Below are positions 42,572 through 51,460 of a stretch of DNA of 64,000 bases, piece by piece. The position numbers were made by a program, and so were the translations under genes. The DNA is from an uncultured Lachnospiraceae bacterium (lineage in GTDB: Bacteria > Bacillota > Clostridia > Lachnospirales > Lachnospiraceae). The stretch covers positions 1 through 64,000 of the forward strand of contig CACYKH010000007.1 in assembly GCA_902774915.1 (NCBI GenBank), given 5' to 3'. Positions within the stretch are counted from its first letter, which is position 1; every line of letters starts with the position of its first letter. Below the pieces are notes generated by a model that worked only from the letters and a program-made list of their open reading frames with translations, did not search any database and was not told where the DNA came from.

Positions 42572-43867
42572 ATGATATATATTAAAAATGCCCGCATTAT
42601 TGATGCGGTAACTGGAATGGATGAGATTGGCGATGTGGCCATCGTCGACAATTTTATCGCTGGTGCTGGTAAAGATCTTGACATTGAAGAGATAAAAGCC
42701 AGATACGATGTAACTGAAAGTGAAATTCAGACAATCGATGCTACAGGTCTTGTTGTAGCACCAGGACTGGTGGATACTCATGTACATTTCAGAGATCCGG
42801 GACAGACGTATAAAGAAGATATAGAGAGTGGAGCGGCTGCAGCTGCAAGAGGTGGTTTTACAACTGTTGTTTGTATGGCAAATACCAAGCCAGTTGTAGA
42901 TAACATTGATACTCTCAAATATATTCAGGAGAAAGGTGAAAAAACTCCAATCCATGTTCTTCAGACTGCTACAGTTACAAAGGGTATGGCAGGAAAGGAA
43001 CTGGTGGATATGGAGGCTCTGGAAGAGGCTGGAGCAGCAGGCTTTACAGATGATGGCCTTCCAATAATGGATGAAAAGATTCTGGTTCAGGCTCTTAAAA
43101 AAGCGGCAGAGCTGGATCTTCCGGTCAGTCTTCACGAAGAGGATCCAGAGTTTGTTAAACAGGCCGGTGTAAATATGGGAGCGGTATCTGAAAAACTTGG
43201 ATACGGCGGTGCATCCAGAAAAGCGGAAGATGTGATGGTTGCGAGAGATGTGGCTCTTGCTCTTGAAACAGATGCAACACTTGTTATTCAGCATATTAGT
43301 TCAAAGAACAGTGTTGAATTTGTACGTGCAGCAAAGAAACAGGGTGGAGATATACATGCAGAGGCAACCCCTCATCATTTTACATTAACTGAGGATGCTG
43401 TTTTGAAGTATGGAACCAATGCGAGAATGAACCCACCTGTTCGTACTGAGGAAGATAGACAGGCCATTATAGAAGGAATTAAAGATGGAACTATTGATAT
43501 GATCGTTACTGATCATGCTCCTCATTCGAAAGAAGAAAAAGATAGAGATTTAGCATCTGCGCCAAGCGGAATTATAGGACTTGAAACTTCACTTGGTCTG
43601 GGAATAAAATCCCTGGTTCAGCCAGGACACATTTCGCTTCTTAAATTGATGGAGCTTATGAGTAAAAATCCTGCTGAGTTATATAGAATGATCCCTGGCA
43701 GTTTCCAGGTTGGAAGACCGGCAGATGTAGTTATATTTGGTGAGAATGAAGAATGGAAGGTTGAAAGCTTTGCTTCAAAGGCTGAGAATAGTCCGTTTAT
43801 TGGATGGACACTTCCAGGAAAAGTACATTATACAATTTGTAATGGAAAGATTGTTTACGAGGGCTAA
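42572..43867 (+). CDS. pyrC: Dihydroorotase
   Basis: 431 residues of the class I (PyrC of Bacillus type) amidohydrolases. It closes carbamoyl aspartate to dihydroorotate in pyrimidine synthesis. Metal and substrate motifs are DTHVHFRDPG near 65, FTTVVCMANTKP, SLHEEDPEF, VIQHIS, DIHAEATPHHFTL, MNPPVR, and Asp in MIVTDHAPHS. GATAGGAGAA precedes the ATG. No other pyr gene is nearby, so the pathway is scattered in this genome. The 27-base gap to the next gene permits read-through. Confidence 0.95.
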   Translation: MIYIKNARIIDAVTGMDEIGDVAIVDNFIAGAGKDLDIEEIKARYDVTESEIQTIDATGLVVAPGLVDTHVHFRDPGQTYKEDIESGAAAAARGGFTTVVCMANTKPVVDNIDTLKYIQEKGEKTPIHVLQTATVTKGMAGKELVDMEALEEAGAAGFTDDGLPIMDEKILVQALKKAAELDLPVSLHEEDPEFVKQAGVNMGAVSEKLGYGGASRKAEDVMVARDVALALETDATLVIQHISSKNSVEFVRAAKKQGGDIHAEATPHHFTLTEDAVLKYGTNARMNPPVRTEEDRQAIIEGIKDGTIDMIVTDHAPHSKEEKDRDLASAPSGIIGLETSLGLGIKSLVQPGHISLLKLMELMSKNPAELYRMIPGSFQVGRPADVVIFGENEEWKVESFASKAENSPFIGWTLPGKVHYTICNGKIVYEG

Positions 43868-43894
43868 GGTTTTCTAATTAGTTGGGGTATTTAT

Positions 43895-45148
43895 ATGGAG
43901 AATAATCAAAATAACCAATCTATTTATAGACAGACGCCGATTCAGCAAAATCAGGCGCCACCTGTGTATACAGGTGTAATAGAAAAGCCGAACGTAGTTG
44001 TTATTGGTAATTCAGGTGTTGGTAAGTCCACGCTCATTAATTCGCTGTTCCAGTCTTATGTGGCTGAAACAAGTATTGGCGAGGCGACCACTAAGCAGAT
44101 GCGCGTTTATGAGAACGATGCACTCGGATTTAGAATAATAGATACTATTGGATTTGAACCTGGACTCCTGAATCAAAGCAAGGCTATAACAGCTATAAGA
44201 AAATGGTCGAAGGATAGCATAAAAAATGATGATACAACACATCAGATCAATATGATCTGGTATTGTATCGATGGTACATCCCGCAAGATGTTCAGAAAGA
44301 ACATTGATATGCTCGCTCATGCAACTTCTGTTTGGAAGAGTGTTCCAATTATAGTTGTAATCACGAAGTCTTATTCAAAACCTGAGAGAGATGAGAACAT
44401 CAGGATGGTTTACAATGCTTTCAAGAACCACAAGAAGCTGAGTGAAAACTTGAAGGCAATTGTTCCTGTCGTTGCGACAACATATAAGATTGATAATGAT
44501 CTGAATATAAATGTTACTCCTGATGGACTGGGTGAACTTTTAACAGAAACTGTTAAGTATCTTCCTGAAGGAGTTAATGCATCTATTGTTGATAAGAATT
44601 ATTTTTATCTGAATCAGAAAAGGGCTATGGCTCACTCTGTTGTTGGAGCTTCTGCTATTGCAGGACTTACGGTGGGACTTGTCCCAATTCCATTTCCTGA
44701 TGGAACCATATTGACTCCTCTTGAGATTGGTGAGATTAAGAGCCTTTCCAAGATATATGGTGTGGAGTTTGATAAGGATACTGAACTTATTCAGACCATC
44801 ATTAATGCAGGAACAGCGGGTATAGTTGCAAAGACAGCGCTAAATGCCATCAAAGCAATTCCAGCAGTTAATATTGCGGCAGATGTTCTTAATGGAATAG
44901 TTGCAGGAGTTATTGTTGCTGCGCTTGGTGAAGGAAGCATCTACATTTTCGAACAGATTTATACAGGACAGAAATCCGTTTCTGATACTGAGTGGGTTAA
45001 AAGATTCCTGGATTCAAAGGTTGCAGCAGGTCTTGCTGGTAATATGAATGTGATCATCAAGGAATATACTGACAAGCTAAATTCTGGTCAGAAAGTTACA
45101 ATGAAAGATGTTATGGCTATTATTCTAAAAAATATGAAGTTCAAATAA
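43895..45148 (+). CDS. Dynamin/Era-like GTPase with DUF697-like C-terminal region
   Basis: 417 residues. The N-terminal GTPase domain has a P-loop GNSGVGKST (38-46), switch II DTIGFEPG (83-90), and at the G4 position VITKSYSK (155-162), where TKxD is expected but the Asp is Tyr160. Residues ~245-345 hold Gly/Ala-rich hydrophobic helices (VGASAIAGLTVGLVPIPFPDG..LTPLEIGEIKSLSKIYG), like the membrane-associating DUF697 region of YcjF-type proteins. It is cytoplasmic or peripheral at the membrane. It is 20 bases ahead of the lysozyme-like gene and probably heads that operon. Confidence 0.82.
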   Translation: MENNQNNQSIYRQTPIQQNQAPPVYTGVIEKPNVVVIGNSGVGKSTLINSLFQSYVAETSIGEATTKQMRVYENDALGFRIIDTIGFEPGLLNQSKAITAIRKWSKDSIKNDDTTHQINMIWYCIDGTSRKMFRKNIDMLAHATSVWKSVPIIVVITKSYSKPERDENIRMVYNAFKNHKKLSENLKAIVPVVATTYKIDNDLNINVTPDGLGELLTETVKYLPEGVNASIVDKNYFYLNQKRAMAHSVVGASAIAGLTVGLVPIPFPDGTILTPLEIGEIKSLSKIYGVEFDKDTELIQTIINAGTAGIVAKTALNAIKAIPAVNIAADVLNGIVAGVIVAALGEGSIYIFEQIYTGQKSVSDTEWVKRFLDSKVAAGLAGNMNVIIKEYTDKLNSGQKVTMKDVMAIILKNMKFK

Positions 45149-45168
45149 ACTAAAGGAAAGCACTATCT

Positions 45169-46443
45169 ATGGGTGATTCATCTAACGAAGTGAACAATTC
45201 AATACAGGATAAAGAACTTGAAAGAATCAGAAGGTCTATTCAAAAAAAGTCTGAAGCTTATGAAAAGATGCTTGCTAACAGGGATAGTTTTCTAGAGACT
45301 AACGATAAGAAACTTTCTAATGTTCGTGAGAGAAATGATGAGAGTCTGCAAAAAAGGAGAAAACGAACGGATGAGCGTATTGCCAGTAATAGAAAAAGGA
45401 TAGATGAAAGATATAAAGATTTACCTCCTGAGAGAAGGGAAAGGCTTCAGAAGTGGAAGGATAAAACGGATCAAAATCTTGCGAAACATAGAGAGAGACA
45501 CGATAAAGCAAGAACAATGCATCGTGACTTAGTTGATGACAGAAGAAAAAAACATGATGACAAAGTTAATAAGTATTTTGAAGAAGAAAGAATTAAGAAC
45601 GATAACCGTTTAAAGAGAATTCAAGGTAAGAATGGTAAACGTATAATAAGAATACGAAAAAGAGTGTTTTTTATTACGGTTATTCTTTTGTTCTTTGTCA
45701 TCCTGATGGTTGAAAGAATTGTTCCTTCTTCAAAACTAAAAAAAGAAGGAGTTATGGATGATACTCCTATCGAAGAGAAAATAGAAGTTGTGGATGAAAA
45801 AGAATATGCAACGCTGAAAGGTACTACTGAAGAACAGTTGCTATGGGATCTTCTGATGGAGCACTTTGATGGAAATAAAACAGCGGTTCTTGGAGTAATG
45901 TGTAATCTGAATTCTGAGTCAGAGCTCCATTCAAAAAACCTTGAGGATTATAATAATGAACTTTGGGGTATAGATGATGAAAACTATACTGAGAAGGTTA
46001 ATAGAAAGACTATAGATAAGAATGACTTTATGCAGTCCAGAATAAATAACATCTCCAATGGCTATTATAACAAGTATAATGAGTGGGTTAATAAGGATGG
46101 TGGATATGGCTACGCTCAATATACTTCTTTTGATAAGAAAATGCAGCTTTACCAATTTGCAGAAACATGGTTTGGCCCAGGCGGTGAAGGAGAGGATTAT
46201 AAGTTCAATATCGGTGATCCGGAAATGCAGGCGCATTTTATAGTATATCTACTTGAATCTGATGAGTATAAAGACATGGATTATATGATAAGAAATTCTC
46301 AGAGTGTGGTAGATTCCTGCTATTATTGGTTGAAAATGTATGAGATACCATATGACCCTTATAATGATGGGTACTATACGCTCGCTTTTGATAGGGCTGC
46401 TGCGGCTGATATTATAAAGGCTGCTTGTGATAGAGAGAAATAA
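45169..46443 (+). CDS. Membrane-anchored phage-tail-lysozyme-like wall hydrolase
   Basis: 424 residues. The first ~160 are very charged and coiled-coil-like (repeats of RxxRxDER / HRERHDKAR) and should stay in the cytoplasm. One membrane helix lies at ~166-184. A short linker leads to a ~200-residue extracytoplasmic domain with VLGVMCNLNSESELHS (probable catalytic E250) and GYGYAQYTSFDKKMQLYQFA, both matching the phage-tail lysozyme family. It would cut peptidoglycan glycan strands while anchored in the membrane. No other phage gene is nearby, so it looks domesticated. It lies between the GTPase and the permease fusion. Confidence 0.82.
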   Translation: MGDSSNEVNNSIQDKELERIRRSIQKKSEAYEKMLANRDSFLETNDKKLSNVRERNDESLQKRRKRTDERIASNRKRIDERYKDLPPERRERLQKWKDKTDQNLAKHRERHDKARTMHRDLVDDRRKKHDDKVNKYFEEERIKNDNRLKRIQGKNGKRIIRIRKRVFFITVILLFFVILMVERIVPSSKLKKEGVMDDTPIEEKIEVVDEKEYATLKGTTEEQLLWDLLMEHFDGNKTAVLGVMCNLNSESELHSKNLEDYNNELWGIDDENYTEKVNRKTIDKNDFMQSRINNISNGYYNKYNEWVNKDGGYGYAQYTSFDKKMQLYQFAETWFGPGGEGEDYKFNIGDPEMQAHFIVYLLESDEYKDMDYMIRNSQSVVDSCYYWLKMYEIPYDPYNDGYYTLAFDRAAAADIIKAACDREK

Positions 46444-46471
46444 TATAGATTGGGTTAGAATGGATTTCGTT

Positions 46472-48013
46472 ATGAAATATCGAAAGAAATATTTTATAAA
46501 AACTTTATATATGATTCTTTTGGTTCTTACTTCTTTACTGATTTTAAGTGCCTGCGATGAGAAGAAAGAAAAAGCTCTGGATGTTGAATCAGTCCAGGAT
46601 TTTAATAGTGAAGATTACACCATAGGTGTTGTTACTGGTTTTATTTTCGCTGAGGAGGTTAAGGAAAATCTTCCAAATGCGAATGTAAAGATATATGCCA
46701 ATCGTGAAGATGCATATAAGGGATTGATGGCTGGAGAGATAGATGGAATTGCGGATGATGAGCCGGTTGTCAGGTCCAGACTGAGAAATGATGATGCCAT
46801 AAAACTTGTTCCTGGATATGTAAAAAAGGCAGATTATTCTTTTATATTCCAGAAGAGTGAAAATGGTGAGAAGCTTAGCGGTGAGTTTAGTGATTATGTT
46901 TCCGAACTTAGATCAAGTGGGAAACTGGATTCTCTGGATGACAAATGGTTTGGAGAAGAAACGGATAATAAAATAAGCGATGATGCAAGTTCTCTTCCAA
47001 ATACTAATGGAAAGCTAAAAGTTGCTTACGATTCAGAAATTCCATTTGCGTACAGTTCAGGCGGAAAGCCTACGGGTTATGAAATCGATATTATAATTGG
47101 TTTTTGCGAAAAATATGGATATGCTCTTGAATTAGTTAATGACAGTTTTGTTAATCTATTTAGCGGGGTTTCGTCCGGAGAGTATGATGCGGCATGTAAT
47201 GGTATTACCATTACAGAGTCCCGTAAGGAAAGCTTCAATTTTGGCGCTCCAGATTATAATGGCGGAACTTGCATTTATGTTAAAGCTGTAGTTGATGGGG
47301 CTGAAGAATTACAGAAAAGTGATACTATTTCTAATAGCTTCAAGAATACCTTCGTGAATAATGGCAGATATAAACTTTTCCTTAATGGAATTCTTATAAC
47401 TATTATTATAGTTCTTTCAGCGCTGGTGGGTGGAATTATTCTCGGAATAATCATGTATATGTATGGTAAGAGAGGTTATCCACTTGTAAGGCTTATAATC
47501 AGGATAATAACAGGATTAATACATTGCATACCTGTTGTTATGATTGTGATGCTTGTATACTACAGTTTCTATAATCATATGGCTGTTGGCGGAATGCTTG
47601 CTTCACAGATTGCATTTATCCTTTATTTTGCTGATGAGATTTATATGATGATTGAAAGGCATGCAATAAAAAGGAAAGATGATGAGGAAGACAAGTATAA
47701 CCTGCAGGATAAATACAGACTTGAATTTATAGATACTAAAGAATTCTTCCATATTCTATTTAAGGATAAGGAAGAGATTGTGGAAGATTTTAGAGAAAGA
47801 GTTGTTACTTTGATCAAAATGACAGCAGTTGTTGGCTATGTTACTACTCAGGATATGACGAGGATATTTGATGTTATTCGTTTGGAAAGTAAGGAGACAA
47901 TGATTCCTCTTGTGGCGACAACTATTGCCTACTTCCTGCTTATAGCAGTTGTGATAGCTATTATAAATCGAATTAATATTCGTTCGAAAAAAGATGAAAA
48001 TAGCACCGATTAA
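46472..48013 (+). CDS. Lipoprotein/permease fusion with swapped solute-binding lobes, ABC-importer-like
   Basis: 513 residues from the ATG at 46472, where the signal peptide and lipobox LSAC (C28) begin correctly; earlier in-frame starts overlap the upstream gene. Residues 48-162 match the second lobe of an SBP_bac_3 domain (YTIGVVTGF to DKWFGE). Residues 180-272 match the first lobe (KLKVAYDSEIPFAY to NGGTCIYVK), so the lobe order is reversed. The rest is a permease-like membrane domain (~303-330, ~340-365, ~372-390, ~480-500) ending VTLIKMTAVVGYVTTQDMTR. The usual EAA coupling loop is replaced by a Lys/Asp/Glu-rich stretch (~397-440). No ATPase gene is adjacent. It may sense amino acids rather than import them. 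Confidence 0.8.
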   Translation: MKYRKKYFIKTLYMILLVLTSLLILSACDEKKEKALDVESVQDFNSEDYTIGVVTGFIFAEEVKENLPNANVKIYANREDAYKGLMAGEIDGIADDEPVVRSRLRNDDAIKLVPGYVKKADYSFIFQKSENGEKLSGEFSDYVSELRSSGKLDSLDDKWFGEETDNKISDDASSLPNTNGKLKVAYDSEIPFAYSSGGKPTGYEIDIIIGFCEKYGYALELVNDSFVNLFSGVSSGEYDAACNGITITESRKESFNFGAPDYNGGTCIYVKAVVDGAEELQKSDTISNSFKNTFVNNGRYKLFLNGILITIIIVLSALVGGIILGIIMYMYGKRGYPLVRLIIRIITGLIHCIPVVMIVMLVYYSFYNHMAVGGMLASQIAFILYFADEIYMMIERHAIKRKDDEEDKYNLQDKYRLEFIDTKEFFHILFKDKEEIVEDFRERVVTLIKMTAVVGYVTTQDMTRIFDVIRLESKETMIPLVATTIAYFLLIAVVIAIINRINIRSKKDENSTD

Positions 48014-48029
48014 TACGGTACTATTTTTG

Positions 48030-48061
48030 TTGTCCTTTTGTTGCGATTTTGGGTATATAAT
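48030..48061 (+). promoter_or_regulatory. Candidate promoter of the CTTTTGTT type
   Basis: TTGTCC (48030-48035), CTTTTGTT, and TATAAT (48056-48061) with the same 20-base spacing seen at 4877 and 58625. Confidence 0.5.
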
Positions 48062-48095
48062 AAAATTAGTTAGTTTTTTTGTAGGAGGTAGGTGT

Positions 48096-48515
48096 ATGAA
48101 AAAGGGGTTAATATTAAAGATAATTGTAACTATACTTCAGATAATAATTATTCCGTGTTGTATAGTTGACAGTTGGGCAACAGTCTATACTGATCAAACT
48201 GGTAATTATTTTGATTTCAATTTTATAGATGCGGTGGAACTATTTGGTTCTGACTATCTTGCTACAGGGTTAGTCTGGATATTTGCTGTGGTTGTTATTA
48301 TAATGATCTGGACACCGGCTAGAAAGACGGCATTTATACCAGCAATACTACAAACATTGATTTTCATAATATCTATAATTAGTGTGATATCAAATGAGAA
48401 TGCAGAAATAAAATTCTTTGCATTTATACATGCAGGCATAGCAGTTGTGGCATTGGTTGTCTGTATAATAGCTGGAGTGACAGTAAAAACTGAAACAGCA
48501 GAACAAACTGAATAA
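48096..48515 (+). CDS. Small membrane protein, unknown
   Basis: 139 residues from the ATG at 48096, preceded by TAGGAGG; the longer upstream frame overlaps the previous gene. Four hydrophobic segments (~6-25, ~52-68, ~74-94, ~105-128) with an acidic-Thr C-terminus (TETAEQTE). The first loop holds DSWATVYTDQTGNYFDF. No family recognised. It has its own promoter and terminator. Confidence 0.75.
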   Translation: MKKGLILKIIVTILQIIIIPCCIVDSWATVYTDQTGNYFDFNFIDAVELFGSDYLATGLVWIFAVVVIIMIWTPARKTAFIPAILQTLIFIISIISVISNENAEIKFFAFIHAGIAVVALVVCIIAGVTVKTETAEQTE

Positions 48516-48521
48516 GATGGA

Positions 48522-48559
48522 AAAAGAGTGCATATTATGAATGAAGTGCACTCTTTTTT
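48522..48559 (+). terminator. Intrinsic terminator
   Basis: An 11-bp perfect stem AAAAGAGTGCA/TGCACTCTTTT with a 14-base loop, followed by T residues. Confidence 0.88.
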
Positions 48560-48567
48560 CTTAATTC

Positions 48568-48596
48568 TTGCAATCGTTTTAAGTTGCTAGTATAAT
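48568..48596 (+). promoter_or_regulatory. Promoter of the yhaO-yhaN-like operon
   Basis: TTGCAA (48568-48573) and TATAAT (48591-48596) with a 17-base spacer. Confidence 0.82.
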
Positions 48597-48658
48597 TAGG
48601 TGGTTAGTGATTTAGAACGATTAACAGCTGCTTATCGTGGCTGAAAAAGGAAAGTATT

Positions 48659-49723
48659 ATGAAGTTTATTCATATTGCGGATGTTCATCTTTTTGCTACT
48701 CCTGATGCGGAGTTTGAGTGGGGAGAGAACAGACCAAAGGAAATAGAAGAGACATTTGAAAAGGTCATCGATGCCTGTAACGAAAAGGACATCGATCTTT
48801 TGCTGATAGCAGGAAATCTTTTTGATAGATCTCCATCGGTTGAAGACCTTATATTTGTAGATGAGAAGCTGGCAAGACTTGAGAAGACAAGAACTGTAAT
48901 TCTTTCTGGCTCTGATGATTACATTAAACCAGAGAGTGAAAGCGCTGCATATAAATTCAGATCAAGAACAGTAATGCTTCCAGCTGACAAAACTACAAAT
49001 GCTTATCTTCGTGGAATAAACACATGTGTTACAGGCTATAGCTACGGCAAGTCTGAATACAGAGAACATATTTTAGAAAACATTGATCCGGGTCGTGAAG
49101 ATGCCATCAACATTCTTCTTGGTCATGGTGGTGATAAGAATCATATGCCATTCAAGAAGGAAAAGCTTGCATCCAAGGGATTTGATTATGTGGCTATGGG
49201 TTACATCCGCAGACCAGTTCATATCCTGAAGAACCGTATGGCTTATGCTGGTTCTCCTGAGCCACTTGGACCAAAGGAAACAGGCCGCCATGGTTATGTA
49301 CTTGGTGAGATAAATGACAGTGGCACAAAGATTACATGGTGCCCAATAGCCCAGAGAAATTATGTGGATATCAGCATTACCATGAGCCCAGAGCTTACAT
49401 CTGAGGAGATTACAAAAAATCTTGAGGATAAGCTCCTTAAGCTGGGTAATGCAAATATATATAGAATTATTCTTAGAGGTTTTTCTAAGGATAATATGAG
49501 CTTCGATCTTTCTCGTATAAAGAATAGATATAACATCTATGAGATTCTGAATATGACTATTTCAGATGATGACGAGAAGATGCTCAGAGTTGAGAATGAG
49601 AAAAATATGATGGGAAGCTTTATCCGTGAAGTAAACGGAAGCTACACTGTAGATGAAAGAATCCGCAGCAAGGCTCTTAGGTATGGTATGGAAGCGCTCA
49701 TTATGGCAGGAGAAGAAAGATAA
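48659..49723 (+). CDS. YhaO/SbcD-like metallophosphoesterase with degenerate active site
   Basis: 354 residues with the YhaO/SbcD layout, a DNA-repair nuclease partner of an SMC-like ATPase. The first metal motif is kept (D8 and H10 in ADVHL), and so is GHGGD around H156. Other ligands are changed: GDxxD reads G-N53-LFD, GNHD reads GSDD (84-87), and GHxH reads G-Y182-I-R184. These positions bind the two catalytic metals in active relatives, so nuclease activity is doubtful. The ATPase partner begins immediately at its stop codon. The protein is otherwise intact, so it is probably a structural pseudo-nuclease rather than a pseudogene. Confidence 0.85.
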   Translation: MKFIHIADVHLFATPDAEFEWGENRPKEIEETFEKVIDACNEKDIDLLLIAGNLFDRSPSVEDLIFVDEKLARLEKTRTVILSGSDDYIKPESESAAYKFRSRTVMLPADKTTNAYLRGINTCVTGYSYGKSEYREHILENIDPGREDAINILLGHGGDKNHMPFKKEKLASKGFDYVAMGYIRRPVHILKNRMAYAGSPEPLGPKETGRHGYVLGEINDSGTKITWCPIAQRNYVDISITMSPELTSEEITKNLEDKLLKLGNANIYRIILRGFSKDNMSFDLSRIKNRYNIYEILNMTISDDDEKMLRVENEKNMMGSFIREVNGSYTVDERIRSKALRYGMEALIMAGEER

Positions 49724-51460
49724 ATGTATCTTACAAAGCTTTTAATTAGAGACTTTGGAAAATTTCATAATAAAAGCATGGATCTCCAGCAGGGTGTGAA
49801 TATCATTTATGGTGCTGAGGAATCCGGCAAGTCCACAGTTAGAGACTTCCTGATTGGTCTTATGTATGGTATTCCTCGTAGAGAAGGAATTACAAGAGTA
49901 AGGTCCAACTATGAACTTCGTAAACCAAATAATGGTTCGGGTTATTCAGGAACTGCTTATCTGAGAGATGATGATAAGACTTACCTTGTAGATAGAACAT
50001 TCCTTGCAGGTGCAAAAAAAGCTTCTGTTCTAGATGTAAATTCAGGTAGAGATGTTCGTCTTGTAAATACAGATACTATTTGTGGAACTCTTTGCGAAAC
50101 AGATAAGAATACTTATCTTGATACCAAGTGTATTATTGGTGACGAGGAAGCAAGTGGTAAGAAGAACCTTAAGGAGTATCTTACAAATATTACTCTTACA
50201 GGTACATCCAACATTGATAAAGTTAAGGCTATCAAGTATTTGGAAGAAGAGAAAAAGGCGCACATTCCAAAGCCACTTATCAGAAGACTGGATGAGCTTG
50301 ATGAAAGAATTTCCGAGTACGATACTGTCGATGACGAGATTGAGGCAGTTGAAACTGAAATAAAGACTCTTAACGAAGAGTTTGTTATGGAGGCAGAAAG
50401 ACGTAAGAGAGTTGCGAGACGTCTTGTAGAGAATGAAGATGGAACGGTAACTTACGAAAATGATGCCACCATAGATGAGAAGATAGACCGAATTACAGAG
50501 CGTGAAACAAACTATGCTCCTACCGATCAGGATATCGATAGAGAAGAAAAGGCTCGTAAAGAAAAGATTAAGAAAGAAAAAGCGGATGTTAAGTTTACAG
50601 ACCGTATCCCAGTAATTCTTCTTAGTGGTGTTGCAGTAATCCTTATTATTGCAGCTATCGTGTATATTCTTCCATTTGAGGATTTGATCAGAAAGCTGTT
50701 CGTTGTATTTACTGCAATATTTGTTGCGATAACTATCATCGATGGCTTTAAATCCAAAGGCTTCTTTGATTCGAATCAGGAAGAAGAAACGCCTGATGAA
50801 GATGAGTTTAATAAGGTTCTCGAAGAGCTGAAGGAAGAGGCCGAGGAGCAGGAAGAGATAGAATTTGATATGACCTTTGCTAAGGAATATCAGGAAAAGA
50901 AGGCTGCTCTCAAAGAGAAGGAAGATGCACTCCTTCAGAGACGTAATGAAAGAAATCAGCTTCGTCATGAATTTGATTCTGTATTCAAGAAGAAGAGCGA
51001 ACTTGAGGACGAGATCAAGGCTATTGATTTTGCAATAGCAAAGATTAATTCTCTTTCAGAGAAGTTTAGAGAAGATGCATTCAAGAATCTTCTCAGTAAT
51101 GTTTCAAGATATATAAAGAGTCTGACACAGGGACAGTTCAGCGAGCTTACATTTGACGAAAAGGGAAATATAATCCTTCGCGCTGACTATGGTTATGTAC
51201 CAATTAATAATCTTACAGATATGGATGCGGGAAAGGTATTCCTTGCTGTAAGACTTAGTATTTCAAAGTATCTGGCAAAAGAAAAGCTGCCACTTATAAT
51301 TGATGGTACTTCAATGCTGGAGAGTGCTTCTGAGGTTAAGTCGCTGGTTGACTGCCTCGCAGATATGAATGAAGAACAGATTATAATCCTGACAGATGAC
51401 TGGGGAATGGACTCAGTATTTAAGGGTAGAGGAATTGAGACTAACCTGATCAAGCTGTAA
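49724..51460 (+). CDS. YhaN/SbcC-like AAA ATPase, short and with degenerate signature
   Basis: 578 residues. The N-terminal half-site has the Walker A GAEESGKST (30-38) after LLIRDFGKFHNKS, standard for YhaN/SbcC. A coiled-coil region is interrupted by two membrane helices (~290-340), as in YhaN, but is much shorter than in the ~960-residue B. subtilis protein. In the C-terminal half-site the ABC signature (LSxGxxxQ) is replaced by LTDMDAGKV, and Walker B reads LPLIID527-G528 instead of a double Asp. ATP may still bind, but hydrolysis looks impaired. It forms an operon with the preceding phosphoesterase; their stop and start codons are adjacent. Confidence 0.83.
   Translation: MYLTKLLIRDFGKFHNKSMDLQQGVNIIYGAEESGKSTVRDFLIGLMYGIPRREGITRVRSNYELRKPNNGSGYSGTAYLRDDDKTYLVDRTFLAGAKKASVLDVNSGRDVRLVNTDTICGTLCETDKNTYLDTKCIIGDEEASGKKNLKEYLTNITLTGTSNIDKVKAIKYLEEEKKAHIPKPLIRRLDELDERISEYDTVDDEIEAVETEIKTLNEEFVMEAERRKRVARRLVENEDGTVTYENDATIDEKIDRITERETNYAPTDQDIDREEKARKEKIKKEKADVKFTDRIPVILLSGVAVILIIAAIVYILPFEDLIRKLFVVFTAIFVAITIIDGFKSKGFFDSNQEEETPDEDEFNKVLEELKEEAEEQEEIEFDMTFAKEYQEKKAALKEKEDALLQRRNERNQLRHEFDSVFKKKSELEDEIKAIDFAIAKINSLSEKFREDAFKNLLSNVSRYIKSLTQGQFSELTFDEKGNIILRADYGYVPINNLTDMDAGKVFLAVRLSISKYLAKEKLPLIIDGTSMLESASEVKSLVDCLADMNEEQIIILTDDWGMDSVFKGRGIETNLIKL

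Follow-up and report, generated by a model that had tools for sequence, protein, structure and literature searches.

The DNA examined here is the first 64,000 nucleotides (nt) of contig CACYKH010000007.1 from an uncultured Lachnospiraceae bacterium (GenBank assembly GCA_902774915.1), and this whole stretch is referred to as the window. Three co-directional open reading frames (ORFs) lie on its forward strand at 43895-45148, 45169-46443 and 46460-48013, with intergenic gaps of 20 and 16 nt. A first-pass annotation, made from the sequence alone, had described these three closely spaced genes and read them as a three-gene module composed of a GTPase, a membrane-tethered lysozyme and a permease-like sensor. 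The ORFs are confirmed at these positions, and the idea of a module holds for the second and third genes but not for the GTPase. The lysozyme gene at 45169-46443 is called LYS, and the fusion of a substrate-binding protein (SBP) to a permease at 46460-48013 is called SBPperm. The pair and its parts are as follows.

45169..46443, + strand: LYS, 424 amino acids (aa), with a cytoplasmic coiled coil, one transmembrane (TM) helix and an extracellular lysozyme domain (PF18013, 44.3 bits, residues 223-398)
45169..45648, + strand: N-terminal charged helical region of LYS, length-variable (single-sequence model and comparison of relatives)
45664..45720, + strand: single membrane helix of LYS, residues 166-184 (hydropathy)
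45835..46362, + strand: lysozyme-like domain of LYS with CNLxxES and GGYGY motifs (PF18013 and motif scan)
46460..48013, + strand: SBPperm, 517 aa, with an N-terminal tether, an amino-acid-type SBP with swapped halves and a permease domain (domain searches and alignment)
46562..46954, + strand: C-terminal half of SBP_bac_3, placed first, residues 35-165 (aligns to 5t0w 116-245 and to the cystine SBP model 134-263)
47006..47290, + strand: N-terminal half of SBP_bac_3, placed second, residues 183-277 (no variation at R255, T250 or F230 among LYS-linked copies)
47372..48010, + strand: permease domain of SBPperm, residues 305-517 (TIGR01726 over residues 305-389; full-length alignment to ATPase-linked relatives)
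47696..47770, + strand: place of the EAA (ATPase-docking) loop, degenerate in SBPperm (alignment)

LYS has the layout first proposed for it, a coil followed by one membrane helix and a phage-tail-lysozyme domain. The Phage_lysozyme2 family (PF18013) scores well above its curated cut-off of 28.2 and lies behind a long N-terminal helix and the single TM helix. In a single-sequence model, the long N-terminal helices have a predicted local distance difference test (pLDDT) value of 75-92 for residues 21-150. Each of 20 LYS relatives has one strong TM segment by hydropathy (three double peaks represent one segment each), and all 20 keep both GGYGY and CN[LI]xxES, which contains the putative catalytic Glu. 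The N-terminal region is strongly variable in sequence and length, ranging from about 200 residues in G003 down to almost none in genome G054, if the first start codon of the latter is used, and the coiled coil is short in G051, G294 and G444.

SBPperm joins an amino-acid SBP domain to a permease domain, and its 517 aa are counted from an ATG; an in-frame GTG at 46427 is also open upstream. SBP_bac_3 matches at 79.5 bits (cut-off 26.4) in two stretches, while the HEQRo permease domain (TIGR01726) is partial at 31.7 bits, below its cut-off of 42.2. The C-terminal half of the binding domain precedes the N-terminal half. This swapped order is shared with ATPase-linked relatives, some of which match two to three times in tandem, and it suggests that importers in this family are fused to a circularly permuted binding domain. 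The best-scoring solved chain is 6h30 (GlnPQ), and a search of solved structures with alignment A1 gave no convincing match. SBPperm is, as its sequence indicates, derived from a GlnP-like amino-acid ATP-binding cassette (ABC) importer with a binding domain fused to the permease. The fusion of lipoprotein and permease described in the first-pass annotation stands as a fusion; the lipoprotein signal is not general, with a lipobox-like motif (simple pattern) in 9 of 16 LYS-linked copies, that of G008 being doubtful.

LYS and SBPperm are neighbours across related genomes. A LYS search of 146 relatives, some of them incomplete genomes, gave a match at E <= 0.001 in 21. Sixteen of these, including the genome of the window and all from the same genus, are LYS relatives with both the membrane helix and the lysozyme domain; partial matches in G002, G036, G057, G125 and G129 were left out of the count. 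A same-strand SBPperm directly follows LYS in 13 of the 16, the exceptions being G030, G006 and G054. Outside the genus, a family sample of 397 genomes contains LYS relatives in G421, G444, G294 and G235, with SBPperm adjoining in three of the four, and a class sample of 391 genomes has matches of the LYS kind only in the genome of the window and in G294. Overall, LYS and SBPperm are adjacent and co-directional in 16 of 20 LYS genomes from four genera of one family, so that the linkage first proposed between the permease-like protein and the membrane lysozyme is upheld by neighbourhood comparison.

The junctions between the two genes are tight. With start codons assigned mechanically, six of the 11 measured junctions overlap by 1 or 4 nt and four are 1-34 nt apart; the remaining one, in G040, spans 485 nt owing to a frameshifted LYS. 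At loci L043 and L035, a frameshift splits the LYS of G040 and a stop shortens the SBPperm of G050, reflecting either decay or assembly error. LYS and SBPperm distances correlate across 14 genomes with a Pearson coefficient of 0.79, a value reached by 0 of 5000 shuffles. On the seven genomes that also hold the GTPase, the coefficient is 0.93 for LYS and SBPperm versus 0.37 for LYS and the GTPase. LYS and SBPperm very probably form a functional unit.

The EAA loop of ABC importers is the site where the ATPase docks. When 16 LYS-linked sequences are aligned with 15 ATPase-linked and three other ones, this loop is intact at its A-A, G and P positions in none of the LYS-linked and in all of the ATPase-linked sequences, and 13 of the latter also keep the first E. 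Among the other three, G002 keeps the loop, and G057 and G059 have lost it, both being cut at a contig edge where LYS would be expected. Of 20 stretches around further SBPperm matches, 15 carry an importer-type fusion with an ABC ATPase either behind it or joined to it in one protein. The remaining five are L064 (G059) and L110 (G057), which end at a contig edge, L109 (G002) and L121, which show no ATPase, and L127, which has separate genes and an ATPase; L121 and L127 keep the loop. At locus L109:5859-9724, the gene behind the loop-keeping SBPperm relative of G002 encodes a 7TMR-DISM domain histidine kinase.

The same split appears in the best 30 loci of a family-wide search, where the four with LYS score 0 of 4 motif positions and the other 26 keep 2-4 of 4. 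In 25 of these 26 LYS-less loci the flank shows an ATPase-like ORF, recognised by a Walker A pattern, and L170 shows none. The loop census comprises 61 different permeases, and many weaker permease matches lie outside it; 18 are loop-less, of which 16 have LYS beside them and two end at a contig edge. Wherever the contig extends far enough to judge, a loop-less permease has LYS beside it. A maximum-likelihood tree was built from 55 rows, and in it the 15 rows of the LYS-linked set and G059 make up one side of a branch with support of 100/100 and a length of 1.1. The LYS-linked permeases are a clade on the assumption that the root falls within the ATPase-linked rows.

The stretches fetched for 12 loci of the genus contain no ORF with ABC-ATPase patterns (the contigs of L042 and L044 end just behind SBPperm), and no importer ATPase stands beside SBPperm in L157 and L158. 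Within the window, no transporter ATPase or phage gene adjoins the locus, as the first-pass annotation had observed. Because the docking loop is gone and no importer ATPase gene lies beside it, LYS-linked SBPperm very likely no longer transports. SBPperm could still import with an ATPase encoded elsewhere while LYS merely opens the wall or shares the operon, since ATPase sharing occurs in Gram-positives and other amino-acid ABC permeases are present in the genomes. Borrowing of this kind is improbable, however, with the A-A, G and P positions lost in every LYS-linked copy and fixed in every ATPase-linked one.

The ligand pocket of SBPperm has been kept. Positions D100, P195, F196, F230, T250 and R255 are identical in 16 of 16 LYS-linked copies, whereas in the ATPase-linked set (n=15) R255 is found in 15, P195 and F230 in 14 each, D100 in 5, F196 in 4 and T250 in 1. 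R255 and D99/D100 align with the positions at which GlnH-type proteins bind an amino acid by its carboxylate and its amino group. Because these pocket positions are strictly kept, LYS-linked SBPperm proteins probably bind one ligand class while transport has been given up, and the ligand may be an alpha-amino acid or a wall peptide. The lost docking loop and the kept pocket favour a sensor rather than a transporter, which agrees with the role first suggested for the permease-like protein. Alternatively, SBPperm may sense nothing and act as a scaffold or membrane partner of LYS that positions, stabilises or exports it; the pairing of the genes, the conserved membrane part and the occurrence of LYS, and not SBPperm, as the member also found alone would all suit such a role. 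A mere scaffold would not need a ligand pocket that is stricter in the LYS-linked than in the ATPase-linked set, which makes this alternative unlikely.

The GTPase gene and the remaining features of the locus lie outside the conserved pair.

43895..45148, + strand: GTPase, 417 aa, neighbour outside the pair (MMR_HSR1; gene order in relatives)
45160..48560, no strand: approximate insertion of about 3.5 kilobases (kb) holding LYS, SBPperm and a small membrane ORF (BLAST against five GTPase-SbcD loci)
48096..48515, + strand: 139-aa membrane ORF in the same insertion, outside the conserved pair (2 of 99 genomes)

The GTPase ORF matches MMR_HSR1 at 46.9 bits, in line with its description as a P-loop GTPase, and its DUF697-like region scores 26.5 bits, just short of the family cut-off of 27.7. 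The window is the one place among the 20 LYS genomes where this gene is seen beside LYS; in G006, both LYS and a GTPase relative of 62% identity lie at contig edges, so adjacency is not judgeable there. A close GTPase relative (75-92% identity) is on another contig than LYS in G012, G041, G050, G008, G034, G040, G049 and G054. G003 and G022 hold the pair and have no GTPase match, and the matches in G016 and G046 are weak. The GTPase adjoins SbcD in G012, G041, G050, G043, G005 and G033.

Window positions 43800-49000 were compared by BLAST with five loci (L030, L024, L025, L087 and L084) that run from GTPase to SbcD without the pair. Because these relatives join GTPase to SbcD in this way, the pair is placed in an insertion of about 3.5 kb, the right end of which was set by eye from a promoter-like stretch shared before SbcD. 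Identity between the window and G012 is 90% for the GTPase, 52% for LYS and 42% for SBPperm. The insertion put the pair 20 nt downstream of the GTPase, and co-transcription with the GTPase in this genome is therefore likely but incidental. A promoter and terminator scan of the locus gave 23 promoter-like sites versus 23.4 in shuffles, with no excess.

The first-pass annotation had proposed a three-part machine in which the GTPase works on the cytoplasmic coiled coil of LYS and thereby controls wall cleavage. Such a machine can call on the co-direction and 20-nt gap of the two genes, which make co-transcription probable here, and on the contig edges in G006, where adjacency is possible. It is nonetheless very improbable, given a single adjacency in 20, five GTPase-SbcD loci without the pair, the genomes with the pair and absent or weak GTPase matches, and a coil that is strongly variable, nearly absent in G054 as read and short in three other relatives. 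The three genes were rejected as a conserved system on the same adjacency and on the five loci without the pair, and the expectation that a real module would be kept together in relatives fails for the GTPase and holds for LYS and SBPperm.

The small membrane ORF was rejected as a third member, occurring in 2 of 99 genomes (that of the window and G009). Its relative in G009 is a protein of 67% identity at an unrelated place, and the other 97 of the 99 genomes have no match. Over window positions 42572-51460, pyrC, the DUF697-like GTPase and an SbcD/SbcC-like pair stay neighbours in several relatives.

The wider surroundings of LYS are ordinary and chromosomal. Pfam searches covered 20 genes that flank LYS at 12 of the 20 loci; these genes differ between loci, two have no match, and they include gyrase/topoisomerase subunit A, SecA, transketolase, cellulase/glycosyltransferase, sulfatase, MBOAT, histidine kinase and a CvpA-like protein. 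No phage gene is among these 20. LYS has one weak match (42% coverage, 28% identity) in 50,697 phage records and no match in 72,556 plasmid records, and viral contigs searched with alignments A1 and A2 gave no relative. The prophage location that the first-pass annotation had raised as an objection to its own proposal is at odds with these chromosomal neighbours and the one weak phage match. A prophage or conjugative origin of LYS finds no support, as its neighbours are ordinary and only distant domain relatives sit in conjugation clusters.

Those clusters, L046, L047 and L048, are of conjugation type and have a PF18013-like protein adjoining a TraG-like ATPase gene, the L046 copy also with M23 (domains tested in L046 only). 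Contig C27 of the genome of the window (L163:4689-6590) encodes VanY, PF18013 and Peptidase_S11 in one protein, beside a Transgly-domain protein. LYS might serve another envelope machine, such as conjugation or flagella, with SBPperm as its accessory, and the distant LYS-domain relatives at L046, where M23 and PF18013 stand beside TraG and type IV secretion system (T4SS) genes, point that way. The flanking genes tested, among which flagella were outside the test, include no conjugation or phage gene, and the chance that LYS works in such a machine is small.

Defence and sporulation were also considered. An anti-phage role was rejected, since PADLOC matches are weak and fall on nucleotide-binding and coiled-coil parts, the best being 22.3 bits for the GTPase. 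A nutrient-type binding domain together with a lytic enzyme would suit a spore-germination device made of a nutrient receptor and a cortex-lytic enzyme. A search of 17 of the 20 carrier genomes, with a positive Bacillus subtilis control, found neither SpoIVA (TIGR02836) nor GerA (PF03323) in any of them; 10 of the 17 reach a completeness of at least 90% with no more than 5% contamination. The germination device is not supported by this result and has next to no probability.

The pairing, the grouping of the LYS-linked permeases, the loss of the docking loop, the kept pocket, the putative catalytic Glu and the single TM helix can all be read from sequence comparison. The reading preferred here is that LYS and SBPperm make up a two-gene, ligand-controlled wall-cutting device found in some rumen-type bacteria, a proposal with about an even chance of being right. 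Ligand binding outside the cell would close the binding domain of SBPperm and shift its permease helices. Within the membrane or directly outside it, the single helix and the stalk of LYS would take up this shift, and the extracellular lysozyme domain would thereby be freed or restrained. The two proteins would form a physical complex, with LYS as the effector and SBPperm as its regulator; these roles would explain the asymmetry that the loop-less permease was not seen without LYS on contigs long enough to judge, while LYS occurs alone in 4 of 20 genomes. More specifically, and with confidence slightly short of even, an importer may have been converted once into an ATP-free, ligand-gated receptor that directly opens or closes a tethered lysozyme, giving outside-in control of wall cleavage.

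Several observations weigh against this device or weaken its support. LYS lacks an adjoining SBPperm in G030, G006, G054 and G235, and it can therefore work alone. The rank correlation of LYS and SBPperm distances is weak (Spearman 0.42, 14 genomes), the Pearson correlation is partly shared ancestry, and the coefficient of 0.37 between LYS and the GTPase itself beats most shuffles, of which 1.4% are as high. The first E of the EAA loop persists in 7 of 16 LYS-linked copies. An ABC ATPase adjoins SBPperm in G294 (L159), though beside an FtsX-like permease, and the loop-keeping L109 and L121 are also without an ATPase in the fetched stretch. A missing neighbouring ATPase alone proves little, because L109, L121 and L170 also show none. 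The roles given to the pocket residues are taken over from GlnH-type proteins, and the single-sequence models (mean pLDDT 37 for SBPperm and 52 for LYS) are too poor for use on folds or complexes.

What tells a bacterium when to cut its wall is an open question, and those ABC-like controllers that are known act from inside the cell with ATP. If the proposed device is real, wall cleavage would answer directly to a chemical signal from outside the cell, and the permease would be a clear example of a transporter that has become a receptor, with an output that is neither gene expression nor motility. Given the clean split in the sequences examined, with the loop lost where LYS is linked, two genes suffice for a direct test of the idea.

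No description of the LYS-SBPperm pair was found in the literature searched, the coverage of which is partial. GlnPQ (6h30; PMC8025302) has tandem substrate-binding domains linked to the permease, as SBPperm has a binding domain linked to its permease domain. Unlike GlnPQ, SBPperm has swapped SBP halves, no EAA loop and no importer ATPase gene beside it. MglB-2 (PMC4990184) offers a precedent for circularly permuted binding proteins; it differs in binding glucose, in its Type I/Cluster B fold and in being a lipoprotein without a permease domain, and the excerpted text mentions no link to a hydrolase.

In FtsEX-PcsB and FtsEX-CwlO, an ABC-like membrane complex controls a peptidoglycan hydrolase (PMC5061712, PMC11627006, PMC6705773). 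The pair would resemble these systems in that a non-transporting, transporter-like membrane protein controls a wall hydrolase. FtsX, however, is another type of permease, works with the ATPase FtsE and acts from the cytosol outwards. SBPperm belongs to the amino-acid importer type and combines a ligand-binding domain with the lack of an ATPase-docking loop, which suggests control from outside. Neither LYS nor SBPperm matches FtsX or ABC_tran, the defining parts of FtsEX. MltF of Pseudomonas aeruginosa has an N-terminal regulatory domain that binds muropeptides and switches the lytic domain on (PMC10746161). It shares with the pair an SBP-type part and a lytic domain, and the SBP half of SBPperm matches the SBP part of the MltF model at 32 bits, far below the cut-off of 354. 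MltF is described as one protein with its own catalytic domain, whereas the pair consists of two proteins, a PF18013 lysozyme and a partner with a permease domain. By analogy, the LYS-SBPperm pair would work like the FtsEX-controlled hydrolases and MltF but belong to neither.

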